From: Aquabacterium lacunae
GTDB taxonomy: Bacteria > Pseudomonadota > Gammaproteobacteria > Burkholderiales > Burkholderiaceae_C
NCBI RefSeq assembly: GCF_004310865.1
Contig: NZ_SIXI01000002.1
Location: 558,001-622,000, forward strand
Direction of reading: 5' to 3'
DNA: 64,000 nt
The notes under the pieces are model-generated. The model ran no database searches. It worked only from the letters and a program-made list of their open reading frames with translations, and had not been told where the DNA came from. The position numbers were made by a program, and so were the translations under genes. Below are positions 28,512-36,406 of this stretch, piece by piece (position 1 is the first letter of the stretch; each line of letters starts with the position of its first letter).

Positions 28512-30806
28512 ATGGACACGCCCCTGTCGCCCCACCCTGTGGCCGTGCGCACGTTGTGCGAGTTCACGGCCCGCGCGGGTGACCTCGACCTGCGCTTCAC
28601 GCCCTCGCCCACGGCGCAAGAAGGCATGGCAGGGCACGCGCTGGTGGCCTTGCGCCGACCGGCACATTGGCTGCGCGAAGCGCCCCTGCAAGGCGAACAC
28701 GCCGGGCTGCTGGTGCGGGGGCGCGCCGATGGCATCGACCCCACCGCCCAGCGCATCGAAGAGGTCAAGACCCACCGTGGCCCCTTGAGCAACCAGCCGG
28801 CCAACCTGCGCGCCCTGCACTGGGCCCAGGCCCGTGTGTACGGGGCCTTGTGGGCGCAGCAGCAAGGACTGCCCGACACCGCCCTGCTCGACATCGCCCT
28901 GGTGTACCTGAACATCGACGACGGGGAAGAAACGGCACTGAGCGAAGCCCACACCGTGCAGGCCTTGCGCCAACACTTCCAGTCGCTGTGCGAACGCTAC
29001 CGCCATTGGGCCGACCAGGAGCACGCACACCGCCGCGCCCGCGACCGCGCCTTGCAGGACCTGCGCTTTCCGCATGCAGGGTTTCGCACTGGCCAACGCG
29101 AACTGGCCGAGGCCTGCTGGCGTGCGGCACGGCAAGGGCGTGTGCTGCTGGCCCAGGCCTCCACCGGCATCGGCAAGACGGTGGCCACGGTGTTCGCCAC
29201 GCTCAAGGCCATGCCCGAGCAGGCGCTGGACCGCGTGTTCTTTCTCACGGCCAAGACGTCAGGGCGCCAGCTGGCACTCGACACCCTGCAGCAGTTGCCG
29301 GGCCACGCCTGCCGAGCGCTGGAGCTGGTGGCCCGAGACAAGGCATGTGAACACCCCGACAAGGCCTGCCATGGCGAGTCATGCCCCCTGGCCCGGGGCT
29401 TTTACGACCGCCTGCCTCAAGCCCGCCGGGCCGCCGTCGAGTCGGCCATGCAGGGCCACGCCCTGGACAAGGCGCAAGTGCGCGCCCTGGCCCTGGACCA
29501 CCAGGTGTGCCCCTACTACCTCGCGCAGGAGCTGGCCCGCTGGAGCGACGTGGTGGTGGGCGACTACAACCACTGGTTCGACCTCAGCGCCCTGCTGTTC
29601 GCCCTGCAGCAGCAGGAAGGCTGGAAGGTGGCGCTGCTGGTGGACGAGGCCCACAACCTGGTCGACCGCACCCGCGGCATGCACACGGTGGCGCTGGAGC
29701 AGACCGAGCTGCTGGCCCTGCGCAGGCCGGCGCAGCCCGAGGCCATCCGCAAGGCAGCCGACGGCCTGCAGCGCCAATGGGCCCGGCTCAACCGCAGCGC
29801 CCCGGCCGCCTACCACCCGCTGGAGCCCTGGCCCGAAGGCTGGCACCGCGCGCTGGTCAAGCTCATGCAGGCCCTGGGCGAGCACCAGGCCGAACACCCC
29901 ACCGACATCGACCCGCAACGCCAGGCCTTCTTCCTCAATGCCTGGCCTTTGCAGACCCTGGCAGAGCGCTTTGGCAGCCACAGCCTGATCGACCTGCACA
30001 CCACGCACGAGGGCCCCAAGCCCCTGAGCCGCATCACGCTGCGCAACGTGGTGCCTGGCCCGCACCTGGCCCCGCGGCTGGAAGCCGCCCACAGCCTGGT
30101 GCTGTTCTCGGCCACGCTGCAGCCCTGGCACTACCACCAGCGGCTGCTGGGCCTGCCGGACGACACCGTGTGCCTGGACGTGCCCAGCCCATTCCGCGCT
30201 GAGCAGCTGCAGGTGCAAGTGGCGCACCGGCTGTCCACCCGCTACAAAGACCGCGCGCGCAGCCTGCCGCACATCGTGCAGACCATGGCCCGGCAGTGGC
30301 ACGAGCGCCCCGGCAACTACCTGGCGTTCTTCTCCAGCTTCGAGTTCATGCACCAGGCCGGCGAGGCCCTGCAGGCCGCGCACCCGGACATCCCGCAATG
30401 GCGGCAGGAACGCGGCATGCGCGAAGCCGACCAGGCCGCCTTCCTGGCCCGATTCACACCGCAGGGCCAGGGCATCGGCTTTGCCGTGCTGGGTGGCGCC
30501 TTCGGGGAAGGCATCGACCTGCCCGGCAGTCGCCTGATCGGGGCCTTCATCGCCACGCTGGGGCTGCCGCAGGTGAACCCCGTGAACGACACCTTCGCCG
30601 CACGCATGGACGCCCTGTTCGGCACAGGGCAAGGCCATGACATGGCTTACCTCTACCCCGGGCTGCAGAAGGTGGTGCAGGCCGCAGGCCGGGTGATCCG
30701 CACCCCGCAGGACGAGGGCGTGCTGCACCTGATGGATGACCGATTTGCCCAGGCGCGAGTGCAGGCCTTGTGGCCTGGGTGGTGGAGCGCGCCCAAGCCG
30801 CGCTAG
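28512..30806 (+). CDS. XPD/DinG-like helicase with N-terminal nuclease domain
   Basis: A 764-residue protein. Residues about 60-130 look like a PD-(D/E)XK nuclease of the RecB/Cas4 type, with Asp73 in GRADGID and Glu84-Val-Lys86. The helicase follows: Walker A ASTGIGKT (217-223), four cysteines (279, 286, 291, 333) spaced as in the XPD iron-sulfur domain, DEAH at 378-381 and C-terminal motifs GGAFGEGIDLPGSR and QAAGRVIRTPQDEG. It should unwind DNA 5' to 3' with a linked nuclease, in repair or similar roles. Starts at ATG 28512. Confidence 0.85.
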   Translation: MDTPLSPHPVAVRTLCEFTARAGDLDLRFTPSPTAQEGMAGHALVALRRPAHWLREAPLQGEHAGLLVRGRADGIDPTAQRIEEVKTHRGPLSNQPANLRALHWAQARVYGALWAQQQGLPDTALLDIALVYLNIDDGEETALSEAHTVQALRQHFQSLCERYRHWADQEHAHRRARDRALQDLRFPHAGFRTGQRELAEACWRAARQGRVLLAQASTGIGKTVATVFATLKAMPEQALDRVFFLTAKTSGRQLALDTLQQLPGHACRALELVARDKACEHPDKACHGESCPLARGFYDRLPQARRAAVESAMQGHALDKAQVRALALDHQVCPYYLAQELARWSDVVVGDYNHWFDLSALLFALQQQEGWKVALLVDEAHNLVDRTRGMHTVALEQTELLALRRPAQPEAIRKAADGLQRQWARLNRSAPAAYHPLEPWPEGWHRALVKLMQALGEHQAEHPTDIDPQRQAFFLNAWPLQTLAERFGSHSLIDLHTTHEGPKPLSRITLRNVVPGPHLAPRLEAAHSLVLFSATLQPWHYHQRLLGLPDDTVCLDVPSPFRAEQLQVQVAHRLSTRYKDRARSLPHIVQTMARQWHERPGNYLAFFSSFEFMHQAGEALQAAHPDIPQWRQERGMREADQAAFLARFTPQGQGIGFAVLGGAFGEGIDLPGSRLIGAFIATLGLPQVNPVNDTFAARMDALFGTGQGHDMAYLYPGLQKVVQAAGRVIRTPQDEGVLHLMDDRFAQARVQALWPGWWSAPKPR

Positions 30807-30844
30807 CATGGCGGTCACCTCTGCCCTTGCCTCCCCTCTGCCCC

Positions 30845-31477
30845 ATGAGCGACACCCGCACCTTCCCCGCCGACATCTACACCGAGCCCAAAGCCGACAC
30901 GAACACCCTGGCCAACCTGGGCCCGCTGCGCGCCCTGGCGGGCGTCTGGGAAGGCACCAAAGGCCTGGACATCAAGCCCAAGGCCGATGGCCCGCGCAAG
31001 CAGGCCTATGTGGAGCGCATCAGCCTGCAGCCGGTTGACCCCGTCACCAACGGCCCGCAACTGCTGTACGGCCTGCGCTACCACACCCACGTCACCAAGC
31101 CCGAGCAGGTCAAGACCTACCACGAGCAGGTGGGCTACTGGCTGTGGGAGCCAGCCACCGGCACCGTGATCCACACCCTGACCATCCCGCGTGGCCAGAC
31201 CGTGCTGGCCATGGGCCAGGCCAGCCCGGACGCCCGCCAGTTCGAGCTGGTGGCCACCCGCAGCGGCGGCGGCATCAGCGACATCCCCTTCCTGGCGCAT
31301 GCCTTCCGCACCGACGAGTTCCGCATCACCGTCACCGTGAACGACGACGGCACCTGGAGCTACGACGAAGACACCATCATGGCCATCAAGGGCCAGACCG
31401 AGCCCTTCCACCACCGAGACCGCAACACGCTGAGCAAAGTGGCCGAGCCCACGCCGAATCCGTTGGCTGCAGGCTGA
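30845..31477 (+). CDS. heme-binding beta-barrel (THAP4/nitrobindin-like) protein
   Basis: A 210-residue protein of the FABP-like/nitrobindin group: LRALAGVWEGTKG at the start of the barrel and a conserved C-terminal FHHRDRNTLSKV. Proteins of this family bind ferric heme in a ten-strand barrel and react with nitric oxide or peroxynitrite. It lies 38 bases after the helicase gene and 79 bases before the LOV kinase. A link to light sensing is not shown. Confidence 0.75.
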   Translation: MSDTRTFPADIYTEPKADTNTLANLGPLRALAGVWEGTKGLDIKPKADGPRKQAYVERISLQPVDPVTNGPQLLYGLRYHTHVTKPEQVKTYHEQVGYWLWEPATGTVIHTLTIPRGQTVLAMGQASPDARQFELVATRSGGGISDIPFLAHAFRTDEFRITVTVNDDGTWSYDEDTIMAIKGQTEPFHHRDRNTLSKVAEPTPNPLAAG

Positions 31478-31556
31478 AACGCCCACAATTCCCTCACACC
31501 CGAGCAGGGCTTTCTGCTACAAACTGAGGCATCGCCCCTGATCGCGAGGCCTGTGC

Positions 31557-33401
31557 ATGGTTCCCGACACGGAACGCCATGAAGCGCTGTTGCAGACGCT
31601 GGACACCGCAGCCCGGCAATCGCCATGGCCTGCCTGGGTGTGGTGTGACCTGTTGCCAGGTGGGCTCATGCTCAATCAGGCGGCTCGACATTGGCTGGGC
31701 CTGCAGGGGGCGGTCGACCAGTCCCTGATGGCGCAAGCCCTGTCGGGCCGGCAACCTCAACCCGCCCCTCTGCCGTGGCTGACCGCCAGCACCACAGGCC
31801 ACCTGGGTGCGCAGGAGTGGCCCGATGGCGAGCTGACCTGGCTGCGCCTGCCCCCCGGAGGCCCCAAGGGCTGGTATGTGCGCTTGTGGCCCCGGGCCGA
31901 GCTGCCGGCGCCCGCGCCCTTGCCCCCGCGTGAAGACCGCTTCCGCCTGATCATCGAGTCGGCCCTCACGCGCTCGGTCAATGGCGTGGTGGTGACCGAC
32001 GCCACCTTGCCCGGCAACCCCATCGTGCACGTCACACCGGGCTTCACCCGCCTGACAGGCTACAACGCCGATGAAGTGATCGGTCGCAACTGCGGCTTCC
32101 TGCAAGGCTCAGACCGCGCTCAGGCCGGTGTGTTTCAGCTGCGCGAGGCCATCGCCCTGCAACGCGACTGCACCGTGGTGCTTCGCAACTTCCGCAAAGA
32201 TGGCACCCCTTTCTGGAACCAGGTCGAGATGCACCCGGTGCGCGACGACGCCACCGGCCTGGTCACGCACTTTTTCGCCCTCCAGACCGACGTCACCCTG
32301 CGCAAAGAGGCCGAAGAGGCCGCATGGGTGCGCCACATCGAGCTTGAGCGGGTGTTTGCCGGCAACCCCATGGCCCTGCTCACCCTCGATGCCCAGCAAT
32401 GCGTGCAGATGGCCAGCCCGGCTTTCGAACGCCTGTTCGGCACCCGGCTGGACACCATCAAGGGCTGCCCGCGTGACGAACTGCCCCGGCACCTGCCACT
32501 GCTGGCCACTCAGCCGCCCTCCAATCCGTCCGCAACGCCGCCGTGGACATGGCCGGAGGCTGGGCACAGCGAATGCTGGCACGTGGGGGGACCAAGCCCT
32601 CGGGCCCTGGAGGTCAGCGTGCACCCACTGGGAGGCCCCAGCCCCGAGCGGCTGTACCTGTTCCGTGACGTGACCCAGGCCGAAGAGCAGCAGCAGGCCC
32701 ACAGCGAATTCCTGGCCAAGGCCGCGCATGAACTGCGCACGCCCCTGGGCAGCATCTGCGGCTTCACCGAACTGCTGCTCAGCCGCGCCTACACGCGCGA
32801 ACAGCAACGCCCCCTGCTCGAAACCGTGCTCTCGCAGGCCATGCGCCTGACCTCGCTGATCAACGACCTGCTCGATCTGTCCCGCATGGACCACCTGGGG
32901 GAACAGGCGTTTCCCCTGCGCGCGGTCGACCTGCGCGGGGTCATGCACAAGGCCCTGCAGGTGGTGCAGAACCCAGGGGGTGGCCGCCACTTCGACGTGC
33001 AATGGCCCCCCGCCGGCCCGCTGGTCTGGGGCCATGCCCAAAAGCTGGAGCAGGTGCTGATCAACCTGCTGTCCAACGCGGTGAAGTACTCGCCCGACGG
33101 CGGGGCCGTGCATGTGCGCGCACTGCCCGACCCCACCCCGGGCAGCTGGCGCATCGAGGTCGAAGACCACGGCATCGGTCTGGCGCCCGAGCACCTCGAC
33201 AAGCTGTTCACACGGTTTTTCAGAGCCAACCCTTCAGGTCCCATCCCGGGCACGGGCCTGGGGCTGGTGATCGTCAAGGAACTGGTCGAGCGCATGGGCG
33301 GCCAGATCACCGTGCGCAGCACCCTGGGCCAGGGCACCACGTTTTCAGTGCACCTGGGCCCCCTGCCCGACGTCGCGCCTGCATCTTCTTCCTCATCCTG
33401 A
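31557..33401 (+). CDS. LOV-domain histidine kinase (blue-light sensor)
   Basis: A 614-residue cytoplasmic kinase. A weak PAS-like N-terminal segment (about residues 20-120) precedes a LOV domain (about 130-247): adduct cysteine Cys179 in GRNCGFLQG, flavin-contact Asn211 and Asn221 in NFRKDGTPFWN, and Gln243 in FFALQTDVT, all spaced as in known LOV domains. A second PAS (about 255-370) leads to HisKA with His391 (AAHELRTPLGS) and an intact ATPase domain (INLLSNAVKYSPDG, GTGLGLVIVKEL). The Arg following Cys in the consensus is Gly here. No membrane segment is seen. It heads the photoreceptor operon; no response regulator is adjacent. Confidence 0.9.
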   Translation: MVPDTERHEALLQTLDTAARQSPWPAWVWCDLLPGGLMLNQAARHWLGLQGAVDQSLMAQALSGRQPQPAPLPWLTASTTGHLGAQEWPDGELTWLRLPPGGPKGWYVRLWPRAELPAPAPLPPREDRFRLIIESALTRSVNGVVVTDATLPGNPIVHVTPGFTRLTGYNADEVIGRNCGFLQGSDRAQAGVFQLREAIALQRDCTVVLRNFRKDGTPFWNQVEMHPVRDDATGLVTHFFALQTDVTLRKEAEEAAWVRHIELERVFAGNPMALLTLDAQQCVQMASPAFERLFGTRLDTIKGCPRDELPRHLPLLATQPPSNPSATPPWTWPEAGHSECWHVGGPSPRALEVSVHPLGGPSPERLYLFRDVTQAEEQQQAHSEFLAKAAHELRTPLGSICGFTELLLSRAYTREQQRPLLETVLSQAMRLTSLINDLLDLSRMDHLGEQAFPLRAVDLRGVMHKALQVVQNPGGGRHFDVQWPPAGPLVWGHAQKLEQVLINLLSNAVKYSPDGGAVHVRALPDPTPGSWRIEVEDHGIGLAPEHLDKLFTRFFRANPSGPIPGTGLGLVIVKELVERMGGQITVRSTLGQGTTFSVHLGPLPDVAPASSSSS

Positions 33402-33415
33402 CCGAGACCTTCCTC

Positions 33416-33802
33416 ATGAGCACCCAGGAACTCCCCCACTTCGACGCCCCCGGCCTGTGCCGGCTGCTGAACCAGAGTCCGCCCGACCTGCTCGACGAGC
33501 TCCCCTACGGCGTGATCGGCTTCCTGCCCAATGGCCGCATCCAGCGCTACAACCGGCATGAAAGCCAGATGGCTTTTTTCGACCGCGACTCCGTGCTCGG
33601 ACAGCATGTGTTCCTGGAGCTGGCTCCCTGCCTGAACAACTACCTGGTCGAGACCCGCTTTGCCGATGCCGAAGCGGCGGGGCAGTCGCTGGACGAAACC
33701 TTGCCCTATGTGCTGACGTTCCGAATGCGCCCCACCCGGGTGCGCCTTCGACTGCTCAGCGAACCCGACCAGCCCCTGCGCTTCGTGCTCATCCACCGCT
33801 GA
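33416..33802 (+). CDS. pyp: photoactive yellow protein (PYP) homologue
   Basis: A 128-residue PAS-fold protein close in length to the 125-residue PYP of Halorhodospira. Key residues align with a constant offset of three: Tyr45 (Tyr42), Glu49 (Glu46) and the chromophore thioester Cys72 (Cys69) in LELAPCLNN; Met104 fits Met100. Thr50 and Arg52 are replaced by Ala53 and Phe55, so hydrogen bonding around the chromophore should differ. The C-terminal strand RPTRVRLRLL and FVLIHR fits the PYP fold. PYP binds p-coumaric acid and cycles under blue light. It starts 14 bases after the LOV kinase and lies upstream of a coumarate ligase-like gene. Confidence 0.87.
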   Translation: MSTQELPHFDAPGLCRLLNQSPPDLLDELPYGVIGFLPNGRIQRYNRHESQMAFFDRDSVLGQHVFLELAPCLNNYLVETRFADAEAAGQSLDETLPYVLTFRMRPTRVRLRLLSEPDQPLRFVLIHR

Positions 33803-33825
33803 CCTCATCCACCCAAGGAACCGCC

Positions 33826-34284
33826 ATGTCCCCCGTGCTCCGCGAGGATCTGCCCCTGCCTGGCGATGCCGCCCTGGTCGACGAGTACCGGGCCCTGCTC
33901 CAGTTCATCCACCTGGCGCCGGTGGGTCTGGTCAAGGCGCGGCGCGACGGCAGCATCGACCTCATGAACCCGATGGCTGCACAATTGCTGGCCCCATTGG
34001 GTTTTGGCGAAGGCACCGGCGGGCTGAACCTGCTGACCATCCTCGACCGCGCCTCGCCCGACATCCGCACCCTGGTGCAACTGCAGCAAGGCAGCGCCGG
34101 CGTGGTCTGCGAGAACTACCGCATCACGCTGCCCGAAGCCGACCATGCCCCCGAAGAAGCTCCGGTGGCCCTGGGCGTGACGCTGATGATGCTGGGCGAT
34201 GTGCTCGACAGCCTGATGGCCGTGATCACCGACGAATCGGCCGCCGTGCGGCTGCAGCACCTCAAAGCCAGCTGGCGCACCTGA
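33826..34284 (+). CDS. single PAS-domain protein
   Basis: A 152-residue protein. The region from about residue 25 to 130 has PAS features (LAPVGLVKARRDGSIDLMN, then a helical section and a beta-rich C-terminal half). It has no PYP-type chromophore Cys and no LOV motif, so it is unlikely to be a photoreceptor of either kind. Located between pyp and the ligase gene with gaps of 23 and 10 bases, it could be a signalling partner of PYP or the kinase. That role is inference from position alone. Confidence 0.75.
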   Translation: MSPVLREDLPLPGDAALVDEYRALLQFIHLAPVGLVKARRDGSIDLMNPMAAQLLAPLGFGEGTGGLNLLTILDRASPDIRTLVQLQQGSAGVVCENYRITLPEADHAPEEAPVALGVTLMMLGDVLDSLMAVITDESAAVRLQHLKASWRT

Positions 34285-34294
34285 GCCCTGCGCC

Positions 34295-35590
34295 ATGCCT
34301 GCCCACCTGCCACGTACGTCACCCGTCCCGCACTGGCACACACCCGCCACCATCGACCGCCTGGTGCGCGACCTGCTGCTGTCTGAAATGGCCCAGCTGC
34401 GGCCCGGCGGCTGGCCCCTGCCCACCAGCCAGACAGGGGCAGGGCCAGAGGCACCGCCCCCCGATTGGCACTGGGTGCATGACCTGGGCGCCGACTCTCT
34501 GGAGCTGCTGCAGCTCACCACCGCCCTGGCCGACACCCTGGGCCTGCATGAGCTCGCCCAGGCGCAGGCACTGTTCGAGCAGCCCCGCTGGGCGCACTGG
34601 CAGGCCATGGCCCGCTCGCATTGGCAACAGCCCCCTGAACGCCTGCGCTTTCGCACCTCGGGCAGCACCGGCACGCCGCGCAGCTGCTGGCATGCCCTGC
34701 CCCACCTGTGGGAGGAAATGTGTGCCATGGCCACCGTGATCGGCCCGGCCCGGCGGGTGGTCAGCGCGGTGCGCAGCCACCACATCTACGGCTTCCTGTT
34801 CACCGTGCTGCTGCCGCACGCCCTGCGCCCCGAGCAGCCCCTGCCCGTGCTGGACCTGGCCGGCCTGCCCCCCATTGGCCTGGGCCGCCAGCTGGCGCCG
34901 GGCGATGTGGTGGTGGGCTTTCCCGACTGGTGGCGCGCAGCCTTGCGGGCGACGCCCGAGTGGCCAGACGGCGTGGTGGGCATCAGCTCGACCGCCCCAT
35001 GTCCACCCGAGCTGAGCGATGCCTGCCTGCAGGCCGGGCTGCACCGACTGCTGCATGTGTATGGCAGCTCGGAAACCGCCGGCATCGGCTGGCGCGAATG
35101 GCCCCAGCAGGCCTATACGCTGTTCCCCCACTGGCACCGTGTGCCTGGCGAACCGCAGACCCTGCAACGTGAGGGCCTGACGCCTGAGGCAGCGCCACGG
35201 CGCACCACCCTTCAAGACACCTTGCACTGGGCATCTGCCCACGACACGCCGGCCGACGCTGACACTGCGCGTTGCTTCACCCCGGGGCCGCGGGTGGACG
35301 GCGCGGTGCAGGTGGGGGGTGTGAACGTGCACCTGGGCCTGGTGCAGGCACGGCTGGCCCAGTTGCCTGGTGTGCAGGACATCACCGTGCGACTGGCCGA
35401 CCTTCAGGGCCAGCCCCGGCTCAAGGCCTTTGTGGTGCCCACTCCCGATGCCCCGGCCGACCTGCCCGAGCAGCTGCTGGCCTGGGCCCGGCAACACCTG
35501 GCGCCCCCCGCACGGCCGGTGCACATCACGCTGGGTCAGGCCCTGCCGCGCAACGGCATGGGCAAGCTGTGCGACTGGCCCCTGGGCTGA
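34295..35590 (+). CDS. pcl: 4-coumarate--CoA ligase-like enzyme for PYP chromophore activation
   Basis: A 431-residue adenylate-forming enzyme, shorter than plant 4CL (about 550). The AMP-binding loop is RTSGSTGTPRS (120-130), the A5 motif is VYGSSETAGIGW and the catalytic lysine is in LPRNGMGKLCDW near the C-terminus. It resembles the PYP-associated ligase family that makes p-coumaroyl-CoA for attachment to PYP. The first 100 residues contain DLGADSLELLQL (Ser68), a match to the phosphopantetheine site of acyl carrier proteins. Its stop codon abuts that of the convergent dehydrogenase gene. No tyrosine ammonia-lyase is in the window. Confidence 0.82.
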   Translation: MPAHLPRTSPVPHWHTPATIDRLVRDLLLSEMAQLRPGGWPLPTSQTGAGPEAPPPDWHWVHDLGADSLELLQLTTALADTLGLHELAQAQALFEQPRWAHWQAMARSHWQQPPERLRFRTSGSTGTPRSCWHALPHLWEEMCAMATVIGPARRVVSAVRSHHIYGFLFTVLLPHALRPEQPLPVLDLAGLPPIGLGRQLAPGDVVVGFPDWWRAALRATPEWPDGVVGISSTAPCPPELSDACLQAGLHRLLHVYGSSETAGIGWREWPQQAYTLFPHWHRVPGEPQTLQREGLTPEAAPRRTTLQDTLHWASAHDTPADADTARCFTPGPRVDGAVQVGGVNVHLGLVQARLAQLPGVQDITVRLADLQGQPRLKAFVVPTPDAPADLPEQLLAWARQHLAPPARPVHITLGQALPRNGMGKLCDWPLG

Positions 35591-36406
35591 TCAGCGCAGG
35601 CGGTACGCGGCCTTGTCCAGCGTGCCCTTGATCTCGTGCCAGACCACGGCGGTCAGCCAGCGATGCGGCAACAGGTTGGAGCCCACCCACGTCTTGAAGG
35701 CATCCTGGCCACACACGATCTTGGCCTCGTTGCGCCGAATGCCGCGGATCACGCGCTGCGCGATCTGGTCGGGCGGCACGGTCAGGTAACGCTGCGCAAA
35801 CGCCTGGCTTTCCTGCCGGCGCGCAATGTTGGTGGCCACACCCCCCGGGTGCACCAGGTGCACCGTGACCGGGCTGTCATGCAGCTCGACCATCAGGGCC
35901 TCGGTGAAGCCGCGCACCGCAAACTTGCTGGCGCAGTAATCGCTTTGACTGGGTGAGCCGATCAGCCCCATGATGCTGGACACATTCACCACAGCCCCTT
36001 CGCCCTGCGCCATCAGCATGGGCAGAAAAGCCAGTGTGCCGTTGACCACGCCGAAATGGTTGACGCGCATGATGCGCTGGTGGTCGGCCGGCGAGGTCTG
36101 CCACGCAGGCCGAGCCGCCCCCTCGATGCCAGCGTTGTTGATCACCACATGGGCCGTGCCGAAACGCGCCTGAACCTGTGCGGCAAAGCCCTGCATGGCG
36201 GCTTCATCGGCCACATCGAAGGCAGCGGTCAGCACCTCGGTGTGCCCCCGCTGGCGCAGCAGTTCGGCCGTCTGCCCCAGGCCCACCGGGTCGAAATCAT
36301 TGAGGGCCACCCGCGCGCCTTCGGCGGCAAAGGCCAGTGCATAGGCACGCCCCATGCCGGAAGCAGCCCCCGTGATCACCACCACCTTGCCTTGGAAGTC
36401 ACGCAT
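35591..36406 (-). CDS. short-chain dehydrogenase/reductase
   Basis: A 271-residue classical SDR. The cofactor-binding motif is VITGAASGMGRAYA near the N-terminus, NNAGIEG follows, and the catalytic Ser-Tyr-Lys lie in VNVSSIMGLIG and SDYCASKFAV. Asp in LNDFDPVGLG after the second strand suggests NAD preference. It begins 14 bases after the monooxygenase stop. The pair could oxidise an alcohol to a ketone and then insert oxygen into it; the substrate is unknown. Start chosen at the family N-terminus MRDFQGKVVV. Confidence 0.9.
   Translation of the reverse strand: MRDFQGKVVVITGAASGMGRAYALAFAAEGARVALNDFDPVGLGQTAELLRQRGHTEVLTAAFDVADEAAMQGFAAQVQARFGTAHVVINNAGIEGAARPAWQTSPADHQRIMRVNHFGVVNGTLAFLPMLMAQGEGAVVNVSSIMGLIGSPSQSDYCASKFAVRGFTEALMVELHDSPVTVHLVHPGGVATNIARRQESQAFAQRYLTVPPDQIAQRVIRGIRRNEAKIVCGQDAFKTWVGSNLLPHRWLTAVVWHEIKGTLDKAAYRLR

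Follow-up and report, generated by a model that had tools for sequence, protein, structure and literature searches.

How photoactive yellow protein (PYP) passes its light signal to other proteins has been called an important gap in the accessible sections of a recent survey (Dohmen et al. 2025, PMC12826048), and a four-gene locus of Aquabacterium lacunae raises the question of which protein could receive that signal. The locus lies in a 64,000-nucleotide stretch (assembly GCF_004310865.1, contig NZ_SIXI01000002.1, positions 558,001 to 622,000), which we analysed as a whole and refer to as the window; positions below are counted within it. Four open reading frames on the plus strand, at 31557-33401, 33416-33802, 33826-34284 and 34295-35590, encode proteins of 614, 128, 152 and 431 amino acids and are separated by gaps of 14, 23 and 10 bases. 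In this order they specify a LOV-PAS-HisKA histidine kinase, a PYP of clade C, a small PAS-like protein (hereafter PASx) and a PYP-type coumarate ligase. An earlier note on this DNA had given the four genes with correct coordinates and gaps, and its description of a compact unit joining two types of blue-light receptor with a PYP-type ligase was supported, the order being kept in relatives.

The distribution of PASx suggested an answer to this question. PYP was searched for at E<=1e-5 in 399 genomes of the window's family and in 399 genomes of its order, the window's own genome being in both sets, and it was present in 37 and 12 of them, respectively. PASx matched 33 of the 399 family genomes at the same threshold, namely 33 of the 37 with PYP and none of the 362 without it, where the PASx and PYP counts were taken to refer to the same 399 genomes. 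The Fisher p value for this co-occurrence was 3e-44, with relatedness ignored. In an independent plasmid collection, a PASx match was found in 11 of 72,556 records, all 11 with PYP. In 10 of these, the listed match began no more than about 40 bases from PYP; the eleventh, from Caballeronia sp. M1242, had two PASx places, and the one listed lay 1.5 kb downstream of PYP. The absence of matches in PYP-less family genomes and the restriction of plasmid matches to records with PYP ruled out that PASx is an ordinary PAS domain.

The position of PASx relative to PYP was counted in 49 of 54 wide PYP loci, those in which PYP showed at least 40% identity to the window PYP and reached residue 110 (L030, L031, L099, L100 and L101 were left out). 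A PASx-type domain was located downstream of PYP in 45 of the 49 loci, starting within 210 bases in 44 and at 807 bases in one. In the relatives, the gene right after PYP mostly opens with a PASx-related domain, which is followed by a GGDEF, EAL or kinase output. Pfam confirmed such outputs as GGDEF (L021), GGDEF-EAL (a second gene of L021), HisKA-HATPase (L020 and L093) and hybrid kinase (L066), the N-terminal part of the L020 protein being unmarked by Pfam; the remaining outputs were assigned by motif alone. Since the relatives of PASx occurred in these searches only in PYP genomes, nearly always just downstream of PYP and with varied outputs, PASx is a candidate partner of PYP. We infer from these sequence comparisons that the PASx family receives the signal of PYP and that, in the window's clade, it has been separated from its output.

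PASx itself (33826..34284, plus strand, 152 amino acids) gave no Pfam or NCBIfam match. Its predicted structure had a PAS-like order of elements at low confidence (mean predicted local distance difference test score, pLDDT, 56.4), and the best structural matches of this low-confidence model were PAS and LOV structures, with a LOV-PAS-HK protein at the top (E 8.1e-5). Judged by its relatives, PASx is best described as a copy of a PYP-tracking domain that stands apart from the output to which this domain is normally joined. The earlier note had stated that the small PAS protein has no output of its own and had missed its membership in a PYP-linked, normally output-fused PAS family. Two further candidates for a free-standing PASx, with own frames of 147 and 162 amino acids in L028 and L032, were discounted, because a broken output domain lay downstream; that of L028 was in pieces across other frames, that of L032 contained an in-frame stop, and the genomes were 64% and 68% complete.

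Trees were calculated from the 49 PYPs and the 45 PASx domains, with the free-standing loci represented by the window, L062, L063 and L064. These four loci formed one clade in both the PYP tree (100/99, with the bootstrap not settled) and the PASx tree (100/100). The PASx clade of the free-standing loci had a long stem (1.39), as expected of a domain whose role may have changed. Pairwise PYP and PASx distances correlated at 0.74 across the 45 loci, a value that common ancestry alone could produce.

Several observations weighed against PASx as the receiver of the PYP signal. PYP occurred without a PASx match in four family genomes, of which G432 and G633 had only distant PYPs (30-35% identity) and G506 and G634 did not. 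Four of the 49 loci lacked PASx (L079, L074, L091 and L097), although the L079 contig stops 162 bases past PYP and L074 has only a 27% PASx match. Two more plasmid records with PYP gave no PASx match, including one whose PYP was 50% identical, and on a Spirochaetes contig (L105:35-1390) a histidine kinase came after a PYP of 42% identity and PASx gave no match. In addition, joint inheritance within an operon could account for the co-occurrence of PASx and PYP, but it explains less readily why one N-terminal domain is joined to several outputs.

The same gene order was then traced in relatives, as the earlier note had proposed. The closest PYPs among the family genomes (58-65% identity) belonged to G736, G756 and G550. 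The order was complete in G756 (L063, identical to L103 on the contig JAIYCN010000086.1 of a Rubrivivax metagenome-assembled genome, MAG). The first three genes were found up to the contig end in G550 (L064, identical to L104 on CAMCTE010000180.1 of a MAG labelled Azohydromonas lata), and the last three in G736 (L062) and in Comamonadaceae bacterium OS-4 (L102, AP026970.1). A scan for two motifs of the window's PYP clade in one genome per species (84,980 species), which detects close relatives only, yielded four loci, namely L102, L103, L104 and a contig from Spirochaetes. The five other genomes of the same genus that were searched had no PYP. Because the order recurs in other genera, the four-gene arrangement is not due to chance; it is real and older than one genus, and it is apparently rare. 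In both L063 and L064, the operon is preceded on its own strand by a PUCC-family gene (PF03209, E below 1e-140; L063:10717-12120 and L064:2767-4188, both minus). The PUCC family is known from photosynthesis gene clusters.

The first gene (31557..33401, plus strand) encodes a LOV-PAS-HisKA-HATPase kinase of 614 amino acids with 57% identity to the L063 and L064 kinases. An N-terminal extension (about residues 1-125, 31557..31931) was mostly missing from these two relatives in the alignment, and the window kinase was about 115 N-terminal residues longer than they were. The LOV domain followed at about residues 128-250 (31938..32306), where Pfam PAS_9 aligned at 143-247 and a YtvA-family model scored 131 bits on residues 132-263. 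Its core, GRNCGFLQG, contained Cys179 (codon 32091..32093), which we take to be the LOV adduct cysteine. A second PAS domain occupied about residues 259-372 (32331..32672; Pfam PAS_8 at 263-304; 32-34% identity to relatives), and the HisKA and HATPase_c core (32700..33356) carried the motif HELRTP with His391. The PAS_9, PAS, HisKA and HATPase_c matches all exceeded the Pfam cut-offs. Sequence motifs and Pfam thus placed a cysteine-containing LOV core together with HisKA and HATPase_c in one protein, the composition of a LOV photoreceptor kinase. Apart from G550 (50%), none of 190 genomes gave a match above 38% that covered the LOV and PAS parts almost fully, and among the 54 wide PYP loci a LOV kinase of this type was present only in L063 and L064. 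A second LOV-kinase-like protein of the window's genome, a 936-amino-acid frame at G000:C11:673678-675105 (L172), was 39% identical to the operon kinase.

From these data we propose, at about even chances, that the operon is a two-input blue-light signalling module in which PASx links PYP to the LOV kinase. The ligase would load imported p-coumarate onto Cys72 of PYP, blue light would isomerise the bound coumarate, and PASx would read the resulting signalling state. Whereas most relatives use this domain as the input of GGDEF, EAL or kinase proteins, here it would act in trans as a separate protein, its most likely docking site being the PAS part of the kinase. How far an unlinked response regulator is phosphorylated would then depend on both flavin and coumarate photochemistry, whose kinetics differ.

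The unproven part of this proposal is that PYP is physically coupled to the kinase and modulates it, as the earlier note had suggested it may. The genomes of G736 and OS-4, which are separate and 93.5% identical across 16.4 kb, have no kinase within a stretch of 16-18 kb around the other three genes, and the best match of G736 to the window kinase reached just 34%. Because these two genomes keep PYP, PASx and ligase without the kinase, coupling to it does not appear obligatory, and the PYP/PASx pair is apparently not strictly dependent on it. Furthermore, only three LOV-kinase loci are known, two of them from MAGs. A profile comparison of PASx with the whole kinase detected no similarity (a shallow profile of four sequences), which also ruled out, at that depth, that PASx is a copy of the second PAS domain of the kinase. 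Identity of the kinase core was 64% to the L063 and L064 cores and only 29-38% to the cores of kinases fused to PASx; together with the missing similarity to PASx, this indicated that the kinase cannot be regarded simply as the output domain that PASx lost, and a displaced PASx-kinase was ruled out. LOV kinases in other bacteria signal alone. Co-expression without contact, in which the LOV kinase is an independent sensor, PYP and PASx signal in trans to another protein, and the operon only co-produces blue-light parts, is a serious though less probable alternative, favoured by the kinase-free loci, by the lack of PASx-kinase similarity and by the autonomy of other LOV kinases. Against it, the kinase lies directly upstream of PYP in three of the five known loci of the free-PASx clade, and it was in this same clade that PASx lost its output.

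The surroundings of the operon bear on another alternative, namely that the LOV kinase acts on the operon itself. At the 3' side the unit is limited by a convergent gene on the other strand, which ends at 35591. The search of 31300-35700 revealed no site resembling a promoter or a terminator; co-transcription is thus argued from the spacing and from the order conserved in relatives. A partner response regulator, which the earlier note had suggested looking for, did not adjoin the operon: receiver domains gave 86 matches genome-wide, one of them in the window at about 21 kb from the operon. If the kinase and such an unlinked regulator light-switched the expression of PYP, PASx and ligase, the function of PYP would be separate and downstream. 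The kinase being the first gene and the regulator not being adjacent fit this scheme, and the upstream, same-strand PUCC genes of L063 and L064 make a light-dependent regulon plausible; however, the failure to find a promoter-like site and the absence of anything specific to autoregulation make it unlikely. Upstream of the kinase, at a distance of 79 bases, a plus-strand gene at 30770-31477 encodes a THAP4-like heme-binding barrel (PF08768, E 1.4e-24), which is possibly part of the operon transcript.

The PYP (33416..33802, plus strand, 128 amino acids) was assigned from its residues, its NCBIfam match and the tree. Tyr45, Glu49 and Cys72 aligned with Tyr42, Glu46 and Cys69 of solved PYPs (H. 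halophila numbering), so that Cys72 (codon 33629..33631) is the predicted site of p-coumarate attachment. In 49 other PYP loci, the cysteine was present in 48 and the tyrosine and the glutamate in 47 each. Met100 was retained and Phe92 and Phe96 were substituted, which is the clade-C pattern according to the accessible sections of Xing et al. 2022 (PMC9664959). The sole NCBIfam match, TIGR02373, scored 63.5 bits, under its cut-off of 143.05; this model is narrow, since the same sections report that it recovers just 20% of the PYPs found by BLAST. Clade-C-like PYPs of L136, L138, L141, L173 and L174 are hidden in public plasmid records under the label 'phosphonate transporter'. One of them, on the Comamonadaceae plasmid CP099603.1 (L174:4998-10060), has a very large PAS protein and a BLUF protein next to it on the opposite strand, which makes this another place where PYP adjoins a flavin receptor. 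Distant PYP-like frames were also clustered around a coumarate ligase in single genomes, four at L031:6136-9940 and two at L101:6995-9451. No relatives of PYP or of the ligase were found in viral contigs.

The supply of the chromophore was considered next to these residues. The tyrosine ammonia-lyase that the earlier note had proposed seeking elsewhere in the genome was not detected: aromatic ammonia-lyase (PF00221) gave no match in the window's genome, which is estimated to be 99.99% complete. Among five other PYP genomes tested, PF00221 matched in G736, G495 and G563 and did not match in G756 and G550. Since no such enzyme was found in the genome, p-coumarate is probably imported from outside. 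The missing match, together with the five PYP-less genomes of the same genus, could also be explained if PYP were never loaded and the unit were a decaying remnant or served a role other than light sensing. All four frames are open, and Tyr45, Glu49, Cys72, the ligase motifs and the LOV cysteine are retained; moreover, just 7 of the 113 pyp operons in print contain tyrosine ammonia-lyase (PMC12826048, accessible sections), and imported p-coumarate would suffice. We regard this explanation as very unlikely. No reaction-centre gene (PF00124) was found in the window's genome, which ruled out the host as a phototroph.

The fourth gene (34295..35590, plus strand) encodes a ligase of 431 amino acids, identified by family model, Pfam and alignment. 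Its best match by far was TIGR02372, the PYP-type 4-coumarate--CoA ligase, with 281.9 bits over residues 19-425; this match was nearly full-length yet below the cut-off of 334.7, and the next family scored 42.4 bits. The AMP-ligase motifs SGSTGTP and YGSSETAG and Lys424 were aligned, and the gene lies two downstream of pyp. A search of 398 genomes with TIGR02372 was mostly uninformative, generic AMP ligases also matching. The earlier note had recognised the enzyme type and had overlooked that the AMP-ligase part begins only at about residue 117 (the Pfam AMP-binding alignment starts at position 170 of 384) and is preceded by a segment that resembles a carrier protein. A motif and a profile search pointed to this segment at about residues 17-110 (34343..34624), with Ser68 in LGADSLE (codon 34496..34498) as the candidate phosphopantetheine site.

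To place this segment in its family, 21 ligases with PYP in the same stretch were compared; the Rhizobium matches H9 and H10 were not among them. The D-S-(L/I) motif was kept in all 21 and also in L102, outside the 21, and it was missing in both ligase relatives without PYP in their short stretch (L108 and L145). The L145 relative also had an altered P-loop. Two members above the TIGR02372 cut-off (L143 and L144, both within the 21) carried the carrier-like N-terminus, which appears to be a trait of the TIGR02372 family. A profile of the 21 segments gave 105 matches to PDB sequences at E<=1 (best E 2.5e-5), and the best 60 of the 105 were acyl carrier proteins, including complex-I subunits of that family. 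Other results spoke against a carrier. PF00550 scored 18.5 bits on the isolated window segment, under its cut-off of 20.8, and matched just 8 of the 21 segments at E<=0.1 (best 8.6e-4). The modelled helices (17-35, 58-82, 87-95 and 100-109) had low confidence, with block mean pLDDT of 36-58, and the p-coumarate ligase of the H. halophila pyp operon is reported to work through a CoA ester that it makes (PMC12826048, accessible sections). Literature searches on PYP with an acyl carrier protein or phosphopantetheine yielded nothing on point, the accessible part of PMC3992019 included, and no published description of the carrier-like N-terminus of TIGR02372 was found. A carrier function of this segment is, from its sequence, a lead and not a result. 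A broader proposal would combine both strands: PASx would be the dedicated receiver of the PYP signal across clade C and here a free adaptor tuning the LOV kinase, and the ligase would hand coumarate from its own phosphopantetheine arm to PYP without a free CoA ester. We consider this combination doubtful, a little more so than co-expression without contact.

Compared with published systems, the operon combined known and new features. According to the accessible sections of Dohmen et al. (PMC12826048), 17 of 113 pyp operons contain HisKA/HATPase genes, with a preference for the upstream side, 42 contain p-coumarate ligase and 2 contain BLUF. The window shares with those operons a kinase gene upstream of pyp and a ligase gene downstream; in contrast, those sections bring in LOV only for comparison, without naming it among the operon partners, and they describe no PAS protein as a partner. 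The pyp operon of Caballeronia sp. SBC2 (PMC12826048) likewise has a second, flavin-based blue-light receptor, which is BLUF there and LOV on the kinase here. Ppr of Rhodospirillum centenum (PMC12826048) is a precedent for PYP governing a histidine kinase alongside a second photoreceptor, as proposed here, but it is one fused PYP-phytochrome-kinase protein, whereas the window encodes separate proteins with LOV. For clade C, the accessible sections of Xing et al. (PMC9664959) report GGDEF neighbours and no characterised member; the window PYP shares the clade pattern, and its relatives carry adjoining GGDEF or EAL genes. The PAS protein of the window is by contrast free-standing and without output, and those sections give no description of the N-terminal PAS domain that the neighbours have in common. 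The LOV-PAS-HK of Brucella abortus (6ph4) has the same order of LOV, PAS and histidine kinase; the window protein differs in that its kinase core is HisKA. The blue-light kinase model NF052306 matched only the LOV part of the window kinase, with 124 bits vs 450. To our knowledge, no PYP link is known for the Brucella protein.

A search of the open literature on PYP, LOV, operons, Burkholderiales and Comamonadaceae, with supplements and subscription papers outside its scope, found no report of PYP grouped with a LOV kinase. The earlier note had put the locus forward as the strongest candidate for an undescribed system in the window. Kinase genes upstream of pyp and operons with pyp and BLUF are already published (PMC12826048), so this claim was partly overstated; a LOV operon partner is unmentioned in the accessible sections. 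The window thus contains a pyp operon with an upstream kinase that is new in its LOV kinase and in its detached, PYP-linked PAS protein.

Of these results, the PYP-linked PAS domain carries the most value, followed by the carrier-like segment of the ligase. Should that segment prove genuine and carry the modification, the accepted view of how coumaroyl-CoA leads to holo-PYP would have to be revised. If free PASx does act with the LOV kinase, the operon would provide a naturally occurring example of a single kinase under two photochemistries and could serve as an optogenetic part. PASx offers a concrete candidate for the long-sought signalling partner, with which the gap in PYP signalling would become a question of binding between two proteins.

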